A DNA stretch of 64,000 nt from Natrialba taiwanensis DSM 12281 (GTDB taxonomy: Archaea > Halobacteriota > Halobacteria > Halobacteriales > Natrialbaceae). A program made the translations under genes and the position numbers. Below the pieces are notes generated by a model. That model was not told the DNA's origin. It saw nothing but the letters and a program-made list of their open reading frames with translations, and did not search any database. Where the stretch lies: assembly GCF_000337595.1 (NCBI RefSeq), contig NZ_AOIL01000067.1:65203-129202 (forward strand). Reading direction: 5' to 3'. Below, in pieces: positions 18,276-28,118 of this stretch. How positions within the stretch are numbered: position 1 is the first letter of the stretch; every line of letters begins with the position of its first letter.

Positions 18276-19799
18276 ATGAATCGTACGTCGGGCGATAGGC
18301 AGCTGCCGGGGGCAGTTGACCGGGAGGGTACGGGCGAAGCCGACACCAACGCCGGTACTGGTGCTGATGCTAATGCGGATATCGATACCGACGCCAGGTC
18401 GAACTCCCGTTCTCCTCCTGTGCCGGCTCTCACCCCATCGTCTCTCCGTAGCTGTAGTCGTGAACTCACAGACGTTTCCTTCGGTGCGATCCTGGATACC
18501 GACGACGAGGCCCGCATCCAGTGGGCCACCCCCGACGGATTGGAGGTTGTCGGCCGCGGCGTCGCCGCCCGATTTACCGCGCACGGCCCAGACCGGTTCG
18601 AGACCGTCCGTGAACAGGCCGCTCGGACGTTCGCCGAACTCGATCACGATGGGCCGACTGTCGCCCGTCCGCGCGCGTTCGGCGGGCTCTCCTTTCACGA
18701 GAGCCACGACGGTCGCGACAACGATACCGCTTCGAATACACCTTGGAGCGGCTTCGCCGCCGCCTCGTTCGTCATCCCTCGCGTTCTCGTCACCCGCTGT
18801 GACGAGACCACCTGGCTCACCGCCGTCGCCCGCGACGCCGAGACGGCAACCGAGCGATTGCACTCGTGGTACGATCGTCTGGCCGATTTCCCGGCGATGC
18901 GTCCGAGCGGGTCGGCCCCCGGTGTCGCCGCGACCGAGCGCACGACCTCGCCCGCGGTGTGGACCGGCCAGGTCGAACACGCACTCGATCGAATCGAGAC
19001 GACGCCGCTCACCAAGGTCGTTCTCGCCCAGTCGCTGTCGGTCTCGCTCGACGAACCGATCGATGTGCCGGCGACGCTCGAACGCCTGCGCCGACAGTAT
19101 CCGAACTGCTACCGGTTTCTCGTCGATCACGACGCCGATGCCAGTGGAACGTTCTTCGGTACACCGCCGGAGCGGCTCGTCTCGAAACGCGGCGACCACG
19201 TCGAAACCGAGGCGCTTGCCGGCTCCGCCCCTCGCGGCGAGACGCCCGAAGCCGACGAGGAGTTCGCCGATCAACTCCGGGACAGCGAGAAGGTCCAGCA
19301 CGAACACGAACTCGTCGCCGACGCGATCCGCGAGCAGTTGACACCGCTCGCGCGCGAGTTGACCATCGACGAGCAGACGGTTCGCCGACTCGCGACGATC
19401 CAGCACCTGCAGACGCCGATCGACGCGACCCTCGACGGCGACCGTCACGTCCTCGAACTCGTCGAGGCGCTCCACCCGACCCCCGCAGTCGGCGGCATGC
19501 CGCCCGACGACGCCTGGGAGACGATCCGCGAGACGGAGACCTTCGACCGCGGCTGGTACGCCGCTCCGATCGGCTGGTTCGATGGAGACGGCGACGGCGA
19601 GTTCGCGGTCGGTCTCCGGTCGGGCGTCGCGACCGACGAGACGGTTACGCTCTTTGCGGGCAACGGCCTCGTCGCCGACAGCGATCCCGCGGCCGAGTGG
19701 GACGAAGTACAGTTGAAATTCCGGCCGATTCTGGACGAGTTACAGCCTGCGGGCGCAGACGGGATCGAGGACATCACCGGCGATGTGCACTCACAATGA
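18276..19799 (+). CDS. menF: Isochorismate synthase MenF
   Basis: Converts chorismate to isochorismate, the first committed menaquinone step. The 507-residue protein has the chorismate-binding domain in its C-terminal half: LTKVVLAQSLSVSL, the GTPPERLV-type segment (FFGTPPERLVSKRGDHVETE), GSAPRG, DEQTVRRLATIQHL and HPTPAVGGMP, all typical of MenF/EntC. The N-terminal 45 residues are an Asp/Thr/Ala low-complexity leader (TNAGTGADANADIDTDA) that may be an expansion or an overlong start. Its stop codon overlaps the menD start by four bases, so the two are translationally coupled. Confidence 0.93.
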   Translation: MNRTSGDRQLPGAVDREGTGEADTNAGTGADANADIDTDARSNSRSPPVPALTPSSLRSCSRELTDVSFGAILDTDDEARIQWATPDGLEVVGRGVAARFTAHGPDRFETVREQAARTFAELDHDGPTVARPRAFGGLSFHESHDGRDNDTASNTPWSGFAAASFVIPRVLVTRCDETTWLTAVARDAETATERLHSWYDRLADFPAMRPSGSAPGVAATERTTSPAVWTGQVEHALDRIETTPLTKVVLAQSLSVSLDEPIDVPATLERLRRQYPNCYRFLVDHDADASGTFFGTPPERLVSKRGDHVETEALAGSAPRGETPEADEEFADQLRDSEKVQHEHELVADAIREQLTPLARELTIDEQTVRRLATIQHLQTPIDATLDGDRHVLELVEALHPTPAVGGMPPDDAWETIRETETFDRGWYAAPIGWFDGDGDGEFAVGLRSGVATDETVTLFAGNGLVADSDPAAEWDEVQLKFRPILDELQPAGADGIEDITGDVHSQ

Positions 19800-21667
19800 G
19801 CGCACCCAACCGCGCGACCCTCTGGGGTCGCATCCTCGTCGATGAACTCGCTGCGGGCGGGCTGGAGGCGGTCTGTCTCGCCCCCGGCAGTCGATCGACG
19901 CCGCTGACGGTCGCGTTCGCCGAGCATCCCGATATCGAGGTCTATTCGCACTTAGACGAGCGGTCGGCGGCGTTTTTCGCCCTCGGGCGCGCCCGCCGCA
20001 CCGGCGAGCCAACGGCGCTAGTCTGTACCTCCGGGACGGCAGCCGCGAACTTCCACCCGGCGGTAATCGAGGCCGATCAGGCCCGCGTGCCGATGCTCGT
20101 CCTCACGGCCGACCGCCCGCCTGAACTCCGCGATAGCGGTGCAAACCAGACGGTCGATCAGGTTGAACTCTACGGCGACGCCGTGCGCTGGCATGCCGAC
20201 CTTCCGCTTCCGGAAGCCAACGAGCGAACGGCCCGCAGCCTCCGCACGACGGCCGCCCGCGCTCTGCTTGAAACGACCGTCTCCGAACCCGGCCCCGTCC
20301 ACCTCAACTGTCCTTTCCGCAAACCGCTCGACCCGATCGAAACGACCGGCAGCGAGGCCGTCCCCGACGAGTTCGGCGAGACGCTGGCCGGGACGGGTCG
20401 GGGCGGTCCGTTCGTCGAGACCGCCGCGGGGCGACACGCGAGCGAACCCGCCGCCGACGAACTCGCGCTCGATACCCTTCGAACCGCGCTCGAGACCGCG
20501 GACAGACCGCTGCTCGTCGCCGGCCCCGCCGACCCGGTGACACCGTCAGCGGGTGAACTCGATCCTGCGGACGTTGTCGCCGTCGCCGATGCGGTCGGCG
20601 CGCCGGTGCTCGCGGATCCGCTGTCGACTGTTCGGTTCGGGTCGCACGTCGAATCTAGTCCGTCTGAAACCAGGACGATCTACGGCGGATACGACGGCTA
20701 TATCGACTCTCTGATAGCTCCAGACATGAACTCGGACTCGGATCCGGACTCGGAACCAGACCCCGAACCGGATGTCGTCGTCCGGTTCGGTGCCTCACCG
20801 ACCTCGAAGCGGCTCCGGCACGCGCTACGAGACGCCGACGCGCGCCAGTTTCTGCTCGATCCCGTCGGCGCGTGGCGCGAGGCGACGTTCACGGCCACCG
20901 ACCTTCTCGCCGCCTCGCCCGGCTCTGTCTTCGAGAGTCTTGCAGCGTCTCTCGGGGAGTCCACCACTACGAACCCCTGGCGGGCGCGATTCGACGCAGC
21001 AGAGCGGACCCACTGGGATCTCCGCGACGACGCGTGTACGACGAACTCGCTCGAGTCCGAGCCGTTCGAGGGTGCCGTCCTCGCATCGGTCTTCGAGGCC
21101 GCCCCCGATCCGGCGACGATCTTCGTCTCGAACAGCATGCCCGTTCGGGACGCCGACCGGTTCGCCCGCCCGCAACCGACCGATCTGACCGTGCTCGCGA
21201 ACCGCGGTGCGAGCGGTATCGACGGGATCACGAGTTCGGCACTCGGCGCCGGCAGTGCGACCGACGACCCGCTCGTGCTTGTGACGGGCGATCTTGCGTT
21301 CTATCATGATTCGAACGGACTGCTCGCGCTCGAGCGCTGCGGCGTCGACGCGACGATCGTCCTGCTGGACAACGACGGCGGCGGTATCTTCCACGAACTC
21401 CCGATCGAGGCGGTCGATCCGCCGTTCACGTCGCAGTTCAAAACGCCCCACGGCCTCGCGTTCGATGCGCTCGAAGAGCTGTACGATCTCGAGTTCGAGC
21501 GCGTCGAGCCGGCTGCGTTTGAGGGTGCCTACCGACGGTCGCTCGCGAGCGACGGGACGCAGGTGCTGTCGGTGTCGTTCGGCGCGGACGCGAGCCACCG
21601 GCGGCGAGCTGAACTCGATGAGCGAGTGCACACTGCGGTCGCGGGGACGGATGATTCAGGGCCGTAG
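19796..21667 (+). CDS. menD: SEPHCHC synthase MenD
   Basis: The thiamine-diphosphate enzyme that joins isochorismate and 2-oxoglutarate. The 623-residue protein has the N-terminal domain signature LAPGSRSTPLTVAFAEHPDI with the catalytic Glu region DERSAAFFALG, and the ThDP/Mg motif TGDLAFYHDSNGLL with LLDNDGGGIF near residue 520. A striking low-complexity acidic insert, NSDSDPDSEPDPEPD, built from hexanucleotide units, sits near residue 310 between domains. Its last 12 bases overlap the convergent J-domain gene. The start ATG at 19796 overlaps menF. Confidence 0.94.
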   Translation: MSAPNRATLWGRILVDELAAGGLEAVCLAPGSRSTPLTVAFAEHPDIEVYSHLDERSAAFFALGRARRTGEPTALVCTSGTAAANFHPAVIEADQARVPMLVLTADRPPELRDSGANQTVDQVELYGDAVRWHADLPLPEANERTARSLRTTAARALLETTVSEPGPVHLNCPFRKPLDPIETTGSEAVPDEFGETLAGTGRGGPFVETAAGRHASEPAADELALDTLRTALETADRPLLVAGPADPVTPSAGELDPADVVAVADAVGAPVLADPLSTVRFGSHVESSPSETRTIYGGYDGYIDSLIAPDMNSDSDPDSEPDPEPDVVVRFGASPTSKRLRHALRDADARQFLLDPVGAWREATFTATDLLAASPGSVFESLAASLGESTTTNPWRARFDAAERTHWDLRDDACTTNSLESEPFEGAVLASVFEAAPDPATIFVSNSMPVRDADRFARPQPTDLTVLANRGASGIDGITSSALGAGSATDDPLVLVTGDLAFYHDSNGLLALERCGVDATIVLLDNDGGGIFHELPIEAVDPPFTSQFKTPHGLAFDALEELYDLEFERVEPAAFEGAYRRSLASDGTQVLSVSFGADASHRRRAELDERVHTAVAGTDDSGP

Positions 21668-22702
21668 GGCCCACCAGACCACGATCGCGTAGCCGAAGGG
21701 GACCCACACGAACGCGAGGGAGAGGGCTCCGTAGATCGAGCCGAGCGCGAGCGGGACCGCATCTATCGTGACCGCGCCGGCCGGTACGAGCACGCTCCAG
21801 CAGCCGAAGACGCCGCTCGCGATCCGCGGCATCGTCAGCAGATAGCCGACGAGGCAGAGCGTACACGCTGCAACGATCCCGTTGACGAGCGCCGAGAACG
21901 CCGGCGTCAGGCTCGCGTATACGAACAACGGATACAGCGCCCAGATACAGGCGATCGTCACGACGGTCTGCTGGTCCAGCGACCGGCCGTCCCACTCGAG
22001 TTCGATTTCGTCGTCCCAGTCGTGGACGGTGTACTGGAACCCGGCGTCAGAATTCGAATCCGAGTTCGAGTTCGTGTTTGAACCCGAACCCGGATCTGAA
22101 TCCGATTCGGTGTCGGTCCCTCCTGAACTCGTCGTCTCCGTCTGTCCGGTCGTCGCGTGGGTGTGAGTATGAGTGTACGTGTGCGTGCGAGTTCGTGATC
22201 GATGTGACCGTGATCGCGTATTCGAGTTCGTTGCACTCGTGTCCGTTCTCGACTGGGCTTCGCTCCACCCTTCCTCACGCGCGGCCTGCTGGCGAACCTC
22301 TTCGAACGACCAGTCCCCGGTCGAACGAGCGTCTCCCGTTTCTCGCCGTGTGTCGCCCGACTCCGATCGTGGCCCGGACCGCCGTGTCTGGCTCGTTCGC
22401 GACTCGTGGGTGCGCTCGTTCGCTGAACTCTGATTCGTGCGTGTCGCAGTTGCCCCGCGTTCGGCCGAGTTCCGGGTCGCCTGTACGTAGGTTTCGTGTC
22501 CGAGTCGGTCGTACCGCGCCCGCTCGGTTTCGTCAGTAAGGACGGCTCTGGCCGTCGCGACCTGCTGGAACTGCTCGGTAGCGTCGGGGTCGTCGCTGTG
22601 GTCCGGATGGGTCTCGAAGACGCGCTCGCGATAGGCCACCTCGAGTTCGTCTTGCGTCGCGTCGCTCGCAACGCCGAGCACGTCGTAGTACGTCTCGCCC
22701 AC
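21656..22702 (-). CDS. Membrane-anchored J-domain (DnaJ-like) protein
   Basis: A 348-residue co-chaperone-like protein. Residues 3-68 are a canonical J domain (YYDVLGVASDATQDELEVAY, then the HPD motif in THPDHSDDPDA), which should stimulate DnaK. There is no Cys-rich or substrate-binding domain. Instead residues about 70-230 are a low-complexity linker with Thr-His and Ser-Asn/Asp dipeptide runs (THTYTHTHTHAT), followed by about four membrane helices up to the C-terminus. It starts with GTG at 22702, 26-32 bases after a TATA-like ATATTTG on that strand, so the message is probably leaderless. Its 3' end overlaps menD by 12 bases. Confidence 0.85.
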   Translation of the reverse strand: MGETYYDVLGVASDATQDELEVAYRERVFETHPDHSDDPDATEQFQQVATARAVLTDETERARYDRLGHETYVQATRNSAERGATATRTNQSSANERTHESRTSQTRRSGPRSESGDTRRETGDARSTGDWSFEEVRQQAAREEGWSEAQSRTDTSATNSNTRSRSHRSRTRTHTYTHTHTHATTGQTETTSSGGTDTESDSDPGSGSNTNSNSDSNSDAGFQYTVHDWDDEIELEWDGRSLDQQTVVTIACIWALYPLFVYASLTPAFSALVNGIVAACTLCLVGYLLTMPRIASGVFGCWSVLVPAGAVTIDAVPLALGSIYGALSLAFVWVPFGYAIVVWWALRP

Positions 22703-22890
22703 TGTCCATCCGTAGCCTGTTAGGAATCAAATATGTACTGGATGCTCCTCGATATCCCCGTTCTGAACTCGGTGCACCGACGCTCCGAGCGGTCGTTTTC
22801 GACCGGATAAACAAGTAATCGCTATATAGAATTGTGGCTAGCTCGAGCAGTACTACACGGTGTACGAGCTGCTCGCGACAGTCACCGAAA

Positions 22891-22933
22891 CTATTATCTT
22901 GTCGTAAACTACCTAGAATTCTGTGGTTTACGA
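22891..22933 (+). promoter_or_regulatory. bioB promoter with BirA-box-like operator
   Basis: The inverted repeat TCGTAAACT (22902-22910), 14 bases, GGTTTACGA (22925-22933) closely resembles the BirA box known from bacteria and archaea (TTGTAAACC, 14-16 bases, GGTTTACAA): 7 of 9 and 8 of 9 positions match. A TATA-like CTATTATC with an upstream GAAA lies at 22887-22898, putting the transcription start at the GTG codon at 22923. Bound repressor would cover the start site, giving simple biotin-dependent repression. Confidence 0.75.
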
Positions 22934-24047
22934 GACTGGAAACCGAACGGTCGACGAGGCGGTCGCCACCGTCCTCGCCGGCGGTGAACTCGACCGGACC
23001 GAGGCACTTGCCCTCATCGCTCAGCCGGTCGACGTGCTCGCACCGGCGGCGGATGCCGTCCGGGCGCACTTCGGTGACGACACGGTCGACGCCTGTAGCA
23101 TCGTCAACGCGAAGGCGGGAAACTGTGCGGAGGACTGCGGGTTCTGCGCGCAGTCGGTTCACTTCGATACCGGGATCGACACCTACGGTCTCCTCGATCC
23201 GGACCGAATCCTTGCCGCGGCAAAGCGGGCGGAGCGGGACGGCGCACAGCGGTTCGGCATCGTCGTCGCCGAGAAGGGCGTGAGTAAGGAGCAACGACCA
23301 GCGGAGTGGGCGGATGTAATCCGTGCGATCCGTCTCGTTCGCGACGAGACCGCAGTCGAGGTCGATGCGAGTTTAGGGATTCTCACCGAGGAAGAAGCCG
23401 GAATCCTGGCCGAGGAGGGGATCAATCACTATAATCACAACATCGAGACCGCCCCGCAGTACTTCCCCGAGATCGTCTCGACGCATTCCTTCGAAGATCG
23501 GGTGAAGACGCTCGAACGCGCGAAGGCAGCGGGAATGGATCTCTGTGCCGGCGTCATTCTCGGCATGGGGGAAGCACCGGCGGACCGGGTGGACGCCGCG
23601 CTCGCGCTCCGGGATATCGGCATTTCGTCGCTTCCGGTGAACGTTCTCAACCCCGTCGCGGGAACCTCGCTTGGTGACAAGTTCGGCGAGTCGGCGGCGA
23701 TTACGTCGACGGAGATCATCAAGACGATCGCCGTCTATCGGCTGTTACATCCGCGCGCAAGAGTTCGGCTGACGGGTGGTCGCGAGGTCAATCTCGACCG
23801 GGACGAACAGCACCGGCCCTTCGAAGCCGGAGCTGACGGGATGCTGACCGGGGACTACCTCACGACCGAGGGGCAGTCTCCCGGTGACGACCTCGAGATC
23901 GTCGAGCGAGCCGGTCTGCGGCCGAACATGGCGGCCAACGAGTTCGATCCCGAGGCGGTCAAATCGCGCGCCGGGGCGGACGACGATGACGAGGAAGCGA
24001 CGACGGCGGCCGGGAGCGCGACGAGCAATGCCGAAATGGGCGATTGA
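22923..24047 (+). CDS. bioB: Biotin synthase BioB
   Basis: Radical-SAM enzyme that inserts sulfur into dethiobiotin. The CAEDCGFCAQS motif supplies the three cysteines of the [4Fe-4S] cluster, and later motifs NHYNHNIETAPQYFP, GMGEAPADRVDAALALRDIG, NPVAGTSL and the Arg-containing RVRLTGGREVNL fit the family (the Cys/Arg ligands of the [2Fe-2S] cluster in bacterial BioB). The 374-residue chain has an acidic 40-residue C-terminal extension. It starts with GTG, 31 bases after a TATA-like box. First gene of the bioB-bioU-bioF-bioD operon, 6 bases from the next gene. Confidence 0.95.
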   Translation: MVYETGNRTVDEAVATVLAGGELDRTEALALIAQPVDVLAPAADAVRAHFGDDTVDACSIVNAKAGNCAEDCGFCAQSVHFDTGIDTYGLLDPDRILAAAKRAERDGAQRFGIVVAEKGVSKEQRPAEWADVIRAIRLVRDETAVEVDASLGILTEEEAGILAEEGINHYNHNIETAPQYFPEIVSTHSFEDRVKTLERAKAAGMDLCAGVILGMGEAPADRVDAALALRDIGISSLPVNVLNPVAGTSLGDKFGESAAITSTEIIKTIAVYRLLHPRARVRLTGGREVNLDRDEQHRPFEAGADGMLTGDYLTTEGQSPGDDLEIVERAGLRPNMAANEFDPEAVKSRAGADDDDEEATTAAGSATSNAEMGD

Positions 24048-24053
24048 CTGTCG

Positions 24054-25133
24054 ATGACCGAACTGCTAGACGAACACACAGCTACTGACAATCACAACAC
24101 GACGATGAACGAAATCAGATTCGCGGTACTGGGCACGGGAGGTATCGGCCGACGAACGCTCGAGGTATCGACGTACAGGGACGGATTGACGCCGGTTGCA
24201 GCCTGCGACCGTCACGGCGTCGCGATCGATCACGACGGGCTCGATGTAGACGAACTGCTCGCCGCCACGGAGGGGAACATCGCATCCGACGGGGGCGTCA
24301 CCCAAGTCAAGGAAACCGGTGAGCAGAAGGGTGTTGCGGCCTCGGCGCAGGCCGACCCGACTGCGACCCCGATCGACGATATCATCGCCGAGAGCGACGC
24401 CATCGATGCGGTCCTGATCGCACTCCCGAATTTCGAGCACGAGTTCATCCCGAAGGTTGCGGACCGGTTCGTCGAAGCCGACTATTCGGGCGTTCTGGTG
24501 GACGTGCTCAAGCGCTCGCGGGTCATCGGCATGCTCGACGAGCGCGCCGACGCGTTCGCGGAGTGTGGCGTTACGTTCGTCTGCGGGGCCGGCGCGACGC
24601 CGGGACTGCTGACGGGCGCGGCGGCGCTTGCCGCCCAGTCGTTCGTCGAGGTCGAGGCGGTCGACATCTGGTGGGGCGTCGGACTCAAATCCGGCTACGA
24701 GGACAACCGAGGCACCGTCCGCGAGGATATCGCGCACTTGCCCGACTACGATCTCGAAACCGTTCGCGAACTGAGCGACGACGAGATCGAGGCGGTGATC
24801 GACGCCCACGACGGCGTGCTTGAGTTCCACGATATGGAACACGCCGACGACGTCTTGCTGGAGCGCGCCGGCATCTGCGAGGCGGCGGACGTGACCGTCG
24901 GCGGGATTCTCGATGTGACCTCGGACGAGAAACCCACGACGACGACCGTCGAGGTGACGGGGACCACGTTCGACGGCGAACGAGGGACCAACACCGTCGA
25001 ACTGGACGACGATACCAGCATGGCGGCAAACGTCAACGGGCCGGCGCTCGGCTACCTGAAATCCGCCGTTCGGCGGCACCGGGCGGGCGAGTACGGCGTG
25101 TTCGGCCCGGCCGAACTCCTGCCGCGATTCTAA
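24054..25133 (+). CDS. bioU: BioU-like enzyme (saccharopine-dehydrogenase-like) for DAPA formation
   Basis: A 359-residue NAD(P)-binding protein with a dinucleotide fold at FAVLGTGGIGRR. It lies between bioB and bioF, where an aminotransferase (bioA) would be expected; no bioA occurs in the window. The saccharopine-dehydrogenase-like fold is that of cyanobacterial BioU, which turns 8-amino-7-oxononanoate (KAPA) into diaminopelargonate by donating the side-chain nitrogen of one of its own lysines and so works once. A lysine in VLVDVLKRSRVIGM (about residue 153 from this start) is in the right region to be that lysine. An internal ATG at 24105 (MNEIRFAVLG) may be the true start. The assignment rests on fold and operon context. 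Confidence 0.75.
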   Translation: MTELLDEHTATDNHNTTMNEIRFAVLGTGGIGRRTLEVSTYRDGLTPVAACDRHGVAIDHDGLDVDELLAATEGNIASDGGVTQVKETGEQKGVAASAQADPTATPIDDIIAESDAIDAVLIALPNFEHEFIPKVADRFVEADYSGVLVDVLKRSRVIGMLDERADAFAECGVTFVCGAGATPGLLTGAAALAAQSFVEVEAVDIWWGVGLKSGYEDNRGTVREDIAHLPDYDLETVRELSDDEIEAVIDAHDGVLEFHDMEHADDVLLERAGICEAADVTVGGILDVTSDEKPTTTTVEVTGTTFDGERGTNTVELDDDTSMAANVNGPALGYLKSAVRRHRAGEYGVFGPAELLPRF

Positions 25134-25143
25134 TGATCCGACG

Positions 25144-26385
25144 ATGACAGGCGACCTGAACTCGCGAACCGACGACGACGCTCCGGAGGACACCTGCGGG
25201 TTCGCCCTCGCTGACCGGCTCGCGGCGCGCGACGCTCGCGGTCTCCGCCGGGATCTCCGACCGATCGATCGCGTCGCCGGCCGGGCGCGGATGGCGGCGG
25301 ACCCGGGCCGCGGCCGTCCCATCTACGGCGATGAACAACTCGTCTTCGGGTCGAACAATTACCTCGGCCTGGCGCGCGACGACCGCGTCGTCCGAGCCGC
25401 GGAGGAGGCGGCCGCCGCGGTCGGCACCGGCGCGGGCGCGAGCCGTCTCGTGACCGGGGATACGGGCCTCCACCGCGCGCTGGAACGCGACCTCGCCGAG
25501 ACGAAAGACACCGAGCGTGCCCTCCTTTTCTCCTCCGGGTACGCCGCCAACGTCGGCACCGTCGCGGCGCTCGACCCGGACGTGATCTTCTCCGACGAAC
25601 TCAACCACGCGAGCATCATCGACGGCTGTCGGCTCGCCGACGCCGAGACGGTCGTCTACGACCACTGCGATAGCGGATCGCTCTGCGAGGCGATGGCCGC
25701 TCGACGGGACAAGCGCGACGCCGGCGAGTCGTGGCTCGTCGTGACGGATTCGGTGTTTAGCATGGACGGCGACGTGGCACCGCTTTCGGCGATCTGCGAC
25801 GCGGCCGACCGGCACGAGGCGTGGGTAATGGTTGACGAAGCTCACGCGACCGGCCTCTACGAGGGCGGCGGCATCGTCCAGCGCGAGGGTCTCGGCGACC
25901 GAGTGCAGGTTCAGGTGGGAACGCTCTCGAAGGCGCTCGCCAGCCAGGGCGGCTACGTCATCGGAAGCACCCACCTCGTCGAATACCTGCTCAACGCGGC
26001 GCGGTCGTTCGTCTTCTCGACCGGCCTCGCGCCGCCGGCGGTCGGGGCCGCCCGCGAGGCACTTCGGATTGCGCACGAGGGGACGCGCCCTGCGCGACTG
26101 TGGAACACCGTCGACCGCCTCCGCGACGGCCTCGAATCGCTCGGGTACGACGTACTGGGCGAGACGCAGATCCTGCCCGTCGTCGTCGGCGACCGTGACG
26201 ACGCGCTCGCGCTCGCCGACCGGCTTTCGGACCGCGGTATCGTCGCACCGGCGATACGCCCGCCGACGGTTCCCGCGGGGACGAGCCGCATTCGCATCGC
26301 ACCCACGGCCACGCACACTGCATCCGAACTCGAGCGCTGTCTGGACGCCTTCGAACGCGCGGGACGGGAGCTTGATCTGGTATGA
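25144..26385 (+). CDS. bioF: 8-amino-7-oxononanoate synthase BioF
   Basis: PLP enzyme condensing pimeloyl thioester with alanine to KAPA. The 413-residue protein contains FGSNNYLGLA, the substrate-binding HASIIDGCRL, DEAHATG (about 231-237) and the PLP lysine in GTLSKALASQGGY (Lys about 263). These separate it from glycine C-acetyltransferase only weakly, but the operon with bioB and bioD makes BioF clear. It starts 10 bases after bioU and its end overlaps bioD by four bases. Confidence 0.93.
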   Translation: MTGDLNSRTDDDAPEDTCGFALADRLAARDARGLRRDLRPIDRVAGRARMAADPGRGRPIYGDEQLVFGSNNYLGLARDDRVVRAAEEAAAAVGTGAGASRLVTGDTGLHRALERDLAETKDTERALLFSSGYAANVGTVAALDPDVIFSDELNHASIIDGCRLADAETVVYDHCDSGSLCEAMAARRDKRDAGESWLVVTDSVFSMDGDVAPLSAICDAADRHEAWVMVDEAHATGLYEGGGIVQREGLGDRVQVQVGTLSKALASQGGYVIGSTHLVEYLLNAARSFVFSTGLAPPAVGAAREALRIAHEGTRPARLWNTVDRLRDGLESLGYDVLGETQILPVVVGDRDDALALADRLSDRGIVAPAIRPPTVPAGTSRIRIAPTATHTASELERCLDAFERAGRELDLV

Positions 26386-27089
26386 GTGCCGGGATGAAGA
26401 CGCCCGAGAACGCGGTCGCCGTCGTCGGAACCGATACCGGCGTCGGCAAGACCGTCGTCACAGCGGGGCTCGTCGGCTGGCTTCGTGAGGAGGGCTACGA
26501 CGCGCGTGCGATCAAACCCGTCCAGACCGGGTATCCGCCGGACGACGACGCGGCGTTCGTCGCCGAGGCCTGTGGAACCGACCGGGCGGCGACGTGTTGT
26601 CGTCGCCTCGAACCGGCGCTGGCTCCAGCCGTCGCCGCTACTGTCGCGGACGAACCGCTCTCGTACGACTCGCTTCTCGAGAACGTCGCCGCTGAACTCG
26701 ACGCGGCGACCCCGGGCGTCGTCGAGGGCATCGGCGGACTCCGCGTCCCGCTGGCGGACGGCCGCGACGTGCTCGATCTGGTCGCCGACCTCGGCGTGCC
26801 CGCGGTGGTCGTCGCCCGGTCCGGATTGGGAACGCTAAACCACACCGCGCTGTCGGTATCGGCGCTTCGCCGTCGCGGTGTCGACGTAACCGGGATCGTC
26901 CTGAATCAGTACGACGGCGCGTCGCTCGCGGAGCGGACGAACCCCGACGCGCTCGCGGAGATGGTCGACTTCCCGATCCACACGCTGCCGTCGTTTTCCG
27001 TCGCGGAGCCGTCGGCCGCCGTCTCTGCCGTCAGTGCCGCGCTTCCGCGGTCGATCTTCGACGAAATTCTCCCCACGGACCGCGTGTAA
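26382..27089 (+). CDS. bioD: Dethiobiotin synthetase BioD
   Basis: ATP-dependent carboxylation and ring closure of diaminopelargonate to dethiobiotin. The 235-residue protein has the P-loop GTDTGVGKTVVTAGL, the substrate segment AIKPVQTGY and the GIGGLRVPL segment equivalent to the family's GAGG motif. Start at 26382 overlaps bioF (ATGA); an internal ATG four codons later is possible. Last gene of the biotin operon. Confidence 0.93.
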   Translation: MSAGMKTPENAVAVVGTDTGVGKTVVTAGLVGWLREEGYDARAIKPVQTGYPPDDDAAFVAEACGTDRAATCCRRLEPALAPAVAATVADEPLSYDSLLENVAAELDAATPGVVEGIGGLRVPLADGRDVLDLVADLGVPAVVVARSGLGTLNHTALSVSALRRRGVDVTGIVLNQYDGASLAERTNPDALAEMVDFPIHTLPSFSVAEPSAAVSAVSAALPRSIFDEILPTDRV

Positions 27090-27215
27090 CCGCGAGTTCA
27101 CCGTCCGGGCCGTTGCACGCTGACCCGCGACGGGTGCGACGGGTGCGACGGGTTGCAGACGAGACGACCGGCGAGAACCGATACTATATCAGGACTCGTC
27201 CCCCACACTCGGGCG

Positions 27216-28118
27216 ATGGTTTCGGAACTCTTCGACGAGGACCGCTGGGAGCCGATCGACGAGTTCGACTTCCGCGATCTCACCTATCACCGGGCGGTCG
27301 ACTCCGGGACGGTGCGGATCGCTTTCGACCGGCCCGACGTGCGAAATGCCTTCCGGCCGGGAACGGTGGACGAACTGTACGACGCGCTGGATCACGCCAA
27401 GCGCCAGACGGACGTGGGCTGTATTCTCCTGACGGGGAACGGGCCGTCCTCGAAGGACGGCGGCTGGGCGTTCTGTTCCGGGGGCGACCAGACGGTTCGT
27501 GGCGAGGACGGCTACCAGTACACGGGCGAGGACGAGGAGAGCGAAGCCGCGCGCGCCTCGGAGCAGGGACGCCTGCACATTCTCGAGGTGCAGCGGCTCA
27601 TCCGCCATATCCCCAAGGTCGTCGTCTGCGTCGTACCGGGCTGGGCCGTCGGCGGCGGGCACTCGCTGCACGTCGTTTGCGACCTCACGCTCGCGAGCGA
27701 GGAGCACGCGAAGTTCCTCCAGACCGACCCCGACGTGGCGAGCTACGACGCCGGCTTCGGCTCGGCCTACCTGGCCAAGCAGATCGGCCAGAAGAAGGCC
27801 CGCGAAGTGTTCTTCCTCGGCAAAACGTACAGCGCCGAGGAGGCGGCAGAGATGGGCATGGTCAACGAAGCGGTGCCCCACGCTGAACTCGAGGAGACGG
27901 CCCTGGAGTGGGGCGAGCGCATCAACGCCAAGAGCCCGACGGCGATGCGGATGCTGAAGTACGCCTTTAACATGACCGACGACGGGATGGTCGGCCAGCA
28001 GGTGTTCGCCGGCGAGGCGACCCGGCTGGGGTACATGACCGACGAGGCCGCGGAGGGCCGAGACGCCTTCGTCGAGGGCCGCGAACCGGAGTTCGACGAG
28101 TTCCCCTGGCACTACTGA
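27216..28118 (+). CDS. menB: 1,4-dihydroxy-2-naphthoyl-CoA synthase MenB
   Basis: Crotonase-family enzyme that cyclises o-succinylbenzoyl-CoA. The 300-residue protein shows GWAFCSGGDQTVRGEDGYQY and VVPGWAVGGGHSLHVVCDL, forming the oxyanion hole typical of MenB, then TDPDVASYDAGFGSAYLAK and the C-terminal EGREPEFDEFPW seen across MenB proteins. The start at 27216 (MVSELFDEDRW) is chosen over upstream in-frame codons because of family length. A copy of the dispersed repeat begins 6 bases after its stop. Confidence 0.95.
   Translation: MVSELFDEDRWEPIDEFDFRDLTYHRAVDSGTVRIAFDRPDVRNAFRPGTVDELYDALDHAKRQTDVGCILLTGNGPSSKDGGWAFCSGGDQTVRGEDGYQYTGEDEESEAARASEQGRLHILEVQRLIRHIPKVVVCVVPGWAVGGGHSLHVVCDLTLASEEHAKFLQTDPDVASYDAGFGSAYLAKQIGQKKAREVFFLGKTYSAEEAAEMGMVNEAVPHAELEETALEWGERINAKSPTAMRMLKYAFNMTDDGMVGQQVFAGEATRLGYMTDEAAEGRDAFVEGREPEFDEFPWHY

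Follow-up and report, generated by a model that had tools for sequence, protein, structure and literature searches.

The locus raises the question of whether the inverted repeat at the start of bioB in Natrialba taiwanensis DSM 12281 is an operator for the biotin repressor BirA, and how a single segment of DNA could serve a repressor and the protein code at once. The window analyzed here is the whole stretch of 64 kb. The palindrome, TCGTAAACT-N14-GGTTTACGA, was confirmed at positions 22902-22933. It spans -21 to +11 relative to the GTG start codon of bioB (22923-22925); the first base of the right arm is the third base of that codon and the last base is +11. These coordinates agree with the original prediction of a palindrome running from just past the TATA box to 11 bases inside bioB, and the interval 22891-22933 given there is the TATA box plus the palindrome. 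The two arms match the bacterial BirA operator consensus TTGTAAACC-[N14/15]-GGTTTACAA, as presented in the accessible part of PMC545781, at 7/9 and 8/9 positions, and the predicted count of 15/18 was thus reproduced. One exact occurrence of the palindrome was found in the window, compared with 0 expected from 100 shuffles. When the whole 4.6-Mb genome was searched with up to 3 mismatches, only two places were recovered, the bioB site and the start of bioY. The features of the promoter, the candidate operator and the operon are as follows.

22886..22890, + strand, BRE-like element CGAAA, assigned by reading; C at -38/-37 and A at -34/-33 are conserved across 30 relatives
22892..22899, + strand, TATA box TATTATCT; the core TTAT at 22894-22897 corresponds to -29 to -26 of the GTG
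22902..22910, + strand, left arm of the putative operator, TCGTAAACT; non-coding, with half-site bases 3, 6, 7 and 8 invariant in 80/80 loci (best 80 of 153 relatives)
22911..22924, + strand, spacer of 14 bases; weakly conserved, its last two bases being the GT of the GTG
22925..22933, + strand, right arm of the putative operator, GGTTTACGA; coding, made up of the third base of the GTG, the codons for Val-2 and Tyr-3, and the first two bases of the codon for Glu-4
22923..24047, + strand, bioB, encoding biotin synthase and starting with GTG; match to TIGR00433 at 336.6 bits (cut-off 225)
24054..25133, + strand, bioU-like gene, for a DAPA-forming enzyme of the BioU type; NF047886, residues 24-359, 311 bits, under the curated cut-off of 600
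25144..26385, + strand, bioF-like gene; TIGR00858, 404.6 bits, slightly under the cut-off of 426
26382..27089, + strand, bioD, dethiobiotin synthase; match to TIGR00347 at 119.1 bits (cut-off 83.3); its first bases are shared with the end of bioF

The TATA columns from -29 to -26 are conserved among 30 relatives, with T at -28 in 29/30 and A at -27 in 28/30. The haloarchaeal promoter motifs TTWT and CGAAA reported in the available portion of PMC4983044 both match the bioB promoter elements. The same portion defines a transcript as leaderless when transcription starts 0-5 nt before the start codon, and gives a value of 72% for the leaderless fraction of protein-coding transcripts in H. volcanii. 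Based on the spacing from the TATA box, the bioB transcript is probably leaderless, with a predicted start at the GTG or within a few bases of it. An in-frame TAG stop at 22914-22916 indicates that translation does not start much further upstream than the GTG. Given this probable absence of a leader, the right arm would double as protein code, and the reading frame at 22925-22933 bears out the Val-Tyr-Glu assignment made originally. GTG is the bioB start codon in 76/80 haloarchaea (best 80 of 153), far above the 6-9% of GUG starts among leaderless transcripts of H. volcanii, where such starts occur in weakly expressed genes according to the consulted part of PMC4983044.

The bioB gene of the window shares 94% identity with its counterpart in Natrialba asiatica DSM 12278. 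No bioA was found in the bio cluster, and DAPA may be formed in haloarchaea by a BioU-type enzyme instead of BioA, as judged from the BioU match of the second gene. The actual start of the bioU-like gene may lie further in than 24054. In the H. mediterranei Lsm mutant under nitrogen starvation, bioB, bioF and bioD (HFX_5079, HFX_5077 and HFX_5076) were all lowered according to the available section of PMC10779274, and this joint fall is consistent with a single operon. Judged from translations, the bio operon stands amid menaquinone-type genes (18276-28118), with MenF-like and MenD-like ORFs upstream and a MenB-like ORF downstream; a divergent J-domain-like ORF is found nearby at 21656-22702. 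One genome (G045) has bioU apart from bioB, with its own BirA-type palindrome upstream (L081, minus strand, from 1547). That palindrome overlaps the ATG-GTT-GAC start of an ORF of 40 codons, which ends in a TGA overlapping the bioU ATG; the ORF is perhaps a leader remaining from a split operon.

The conservation of the palindrome at bioB was determined in two sets of relatives. A set of 61 related genomes, the genome of the window included, gave a BioB match in 36; the match in G044 (24% identity) was left out as a likely paralogue. In all 35 remaining orthologues the palindrome was found by reading (30 + 5) to lie over the start codon. A separate scan of named genomes used the best 80 of 153 bioB relatives, and the palindrome scored at least 13/16 and ended at +11 in 80/80 of these. 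For one of the loci (L144) the start was placed 15 bases upstream of the BLAST match, which opened at residue 6. Random windows from the same loci reached a score of 13 in 2/1810 cases, and none scored higher. Some species occur in both sets and all the loci share descent, so the counts represent non-independent events. The proposed conservation of the arms in relatives holds in both. A spacer of N13 in place of N14, with the left arm one base nearer, was found at bioB in L012 and L078, and L109 is the only such case among the best 80 of 153. N13 operators were noted at L012, L087, L109, L078, L086 and L091; in G032 the bioB and bioY operators are both of the N13 type, and N13 and N14 are mixed in G031 and G059. 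Among 120 genomes of the phylum, matches outside the order were weak (at most 35% identity) and resembled other radical-SAM proteins, and no close archaeal bioB lacking the operator was found there for comparison.

The second site in the genome is located at bioY (L002), and the related genomes were searched for its counterparts. With up to 2 mismatches the pattern gave sites in 46/61 genomes, compared with 4 matches in total for the forward control. Forty sites away from bioB were retrieved, plus two more (G048 and G045). Of the 40, 37 lie at bioY starts, 36 of these with a bioM-type ATPase match nearby, and the 3 situated elsewhere (L042, L059 and L062) are possibly due to chance. The bioY survey covered 54 genes in 53 genomes, including 15 promoters missed by the pattern. 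A palindrome score of at least 13/16 was obtained for 49/54 genes, the remaining five scoring 12, 10, 10, 9 and 9; a score of 13 or more was reached by 12/1817 random 150-nt windows. The first in-frame start past the palindrome is an ATG 12-15 nt downstream in 42/49, and in 3 further genes of the 49 this ATG lies behind a nearer GTG or TTG. A bioY TTG start inside the palindrome was dropped because of these ATG codons. The bioY spacer contains a conserved TTGAT-like core centered ~27-28 nt before the ATG, which is where a TATA box would be expected if the transcript were leaderless. The operator would thus bracket the TATA box at bioY and lie downstream of it at bioB, the bioY operator being ~24 bp further upstream. 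Natrialba magadii is a biotin auxotroph with BioYMN present and the synthesis genes absent, according to the accessible part of PMC3403918; another genome of this genus (G003) similarly has a bioY site and no bioB. A chance origin of the palindrome is rejected on the shuffles, the genome-wide pattern search, the pattern search of the related genomes with its forward control, and the random-window scores at bioB and bioY.

The genome encodes a BirA of 326 residues that contains an HTH_11 domain (residues 16-64, 47.0 bits against a cut-off of 25), a ligase domain and BPL_C, and is related in sequence to the solved BirA proteins of S. aureus and E. coli. The HTH-bearing BirA that the original reading called for is therefore present. 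Such proteins, counted when the match started by residue 20, were found in 53/61 genomes, including each of the 46 that the pattern had hit with 2 mismatches allowed; on closer reading a site is present in 50 of the 53. The other genomes with an HTH-bearing BirA are G043 and G050, which have bioY and no recognizable site at its promoter, and G009, which is 70% complete and in which neither bioB nor bioY was found. Of the 8 genomes in which no HTH-bearing BirA was found, only G054 has bioY, and its promoter is without a site (9/16), so that the negative side amounts to a single case. The original check had also named birA-type genes among the places to look for the palindrome. It was found at bioB and bioY; the pattern search of the Natrialba taiwanensis genome gave no site near birA, and autoregulation of BirA is thus unsupported there.

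The palindrome is very probably the bioB operator of the haloarchaeal group II BirA. This assignment is drawn from the arms, the N14 spacing and the degenerate fifth base, which are like those of bacterial sites, from the HTH-bearing BirA in the genome, from the conserved positions, and from the fact that both genomic sites are at biotin genes. A real operator read by another haloarchaeal regulator of biotin genes, with the HTH domain of BirA as a bystander, would be compatible with G043 and G050, where an HTH-bearing BirA and bioY occur with no site, since the binding of BirA is itself deduced from sequence. This explanation is improbable, because arms, spacing and degenerate base all follow the bacterial BirA pattern and because every genome with a site (46/46) has the HTH-bearing protein.

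The joint constraint on operator and first codons was evaluated from codon usage. Codon 2 is GTT in 80/80 bioB genes (best 80 of 153), compared with 131/2352 valine codons (5.6%) beyond codon 5; in the 30-genome set the values are 30/30 and 7.6%. Among 91 fourfold-degenerate columns with the same residue in at least 90% of the sequences, codon 2 varies least, and no other column has a main codon ending in T. Codon 3 is TAC in 78, GAC in 1 and CAC in 1 of the best 80 of 153, and remoter genomes have GAC (G045 and G059) or AAC (G046). The change of residue 3 (Tyr, rarely Asp, His or Asn) falls on the degenerate fifth base of the half-site, where all four bases occur. In the untranslated left arm the fifth base is C in 56, A in 15 and T in 9 of the 80 loci (best 80 of 153), and it varies in bacterial BirA sites as well, as described in the available text of PMC545781. 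Half-site base 9 is the G of the start codon in 80/80 right arms and C in 48, T in 25, G in 4 and A in 3 of the left arms (best 80 of 153). The patterns at base 5, base 9 and codon 2 indicate that the operator fixes bases on which the protein sets no limit, and that the code fixes bases on which the operator sets none. At bioY, base 5 is A in 44/49 left arms and 37/49 right arms, neither of which need be translated, and Tyr-3 may thus partly mirror an operator preference. The uniform GTT at codon 2 may in part reflect a codon bias common to the beginnings of genes.

Could conservation of the protein alone produce this pattern, Met-Val-Tyr-Glu being needed and the palindrome a by-product? Val-2 is conserved, as are Tyr-3 and Glu-4 for the most part. 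However, four bases of the untranslated left arm are also conserved in 80/80 (best 80 of 153), the codons adjacent to the uniform GTT vary, and bioY carries the same palindrome where translation is unnecessary. The codon test rejects this explanation, for which we see hardly any likelihood. The analysis of codon use instead supports DNA and protein constraints acting jointly on the bioB start, in keeping with the interpretation originally offered. An mRNA hairpin of the inverted repeat across the start codon, governing translation, is rejected as extremely unlikely: the right arm includes the final start-codon base, and a transcript carrying both arms could fold on itself, but the TATA spacing places the left arm outside the predicted RNA, the bioY palindrome lies wholly around the TATA box upstream of its predicted start, and arm positions 5 and 9 differ freely.

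Bacterial BirA is a dimer with biotinyl-AMP as corepressor. By extrapolation to the haloarchaeal protein, BirA carrying biotinyl-AMP would dimerize through its ligase domains when biotin is plentiful, and the two winged HTH domains of the dimer would be placed on the two operator arms. At bioB, where the dimer would cover the predicted transcription start, the loading or starting of RNA polymerase would be stopped, possibly with TBP and TFB still bound. At bioY, where the predicted TATA box is within the operator spacer, TBP and TFB would be blocked. Binding, the biotinyl-AMP signal, repression, the transcription start and the two modes of blocking are all projected here from bacterial BirA and from the promoter layout. 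The putative operator and the N-terminus of BioB have been kept together across haloarchaea.

A further reading is offered tentatively, as a possibility that we consider somewhat less probable than its opposite. The repressor site would dictate the N-terminus of BioB, the layout would favor GTG as a brake on translation, and blocking would proceed in the two modes given above. The operator would set the GTT of codon 2 and two of the three bases of codon 3, and the Met-Val-(Tyr/Asp/His/Asn)-Glu N-terminus would follow from the bases required by BirA. The rarer GTG start may likewise be favored by the layout, providing a built-in brake.

The report of Rodionov et al. from 2002 reportedly describes, as its title states, a BirA signal common to Eubacteria and Archaea. 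Group II BirA occurs in archaea, according to the accessible parts of papers citing that work. The bacterial BirA operators in the available part of PMC545781 resemble the haloarchaeal sites in the arms, the N14 spacing, the variable fifth base of the half-site, and the number of sites upstream of biotin genes, one or two in each genome. The sites given there are on bacterial promoters, 63-182 bases ahead of the translation start, whereas the haloarchaeal bioB site, on a TATA-type promoter, enters the coding frame; its outer bases read TCG, as opposed to TTG in the bacterial consensus. For bioY of Streptococcus suis, the accessible part of PMC4877710 similarly reports a BirA site over the transcription start and a BirA gel shift there. 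Transcription starts 29 bp before the ATG in that case and the same part describes no overlap with the start codon, unlike the haloarchaeal bioB site. The portion of PMC6728339 consulted concerns E. coli bioBF only. A search of the open literature, with most subscription papers outside its reach, returned no description of a start codon covered by a BirA operator. The BirA box and the archaeal biotin regulon are already in print; the overlap with the start codon, common to every haloarchaeal bioB examined, is modestly new.

The bioB start is thus a stretch of DNA on which two measurable constraints act across a class of archaea, one from the probable operator and one from the protein code. The regulon would have two targets, with one operator at different places on similar promoters, and these positions may correspond to a block of TBP and TFB in one case and of RNA polymerase in the other. 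The haloarchaeal bioB-bioU-bioF-bioD operon and bioY would be governed by an apparent bacterial-type biotin switch acting on a eukaryote-like promoter.
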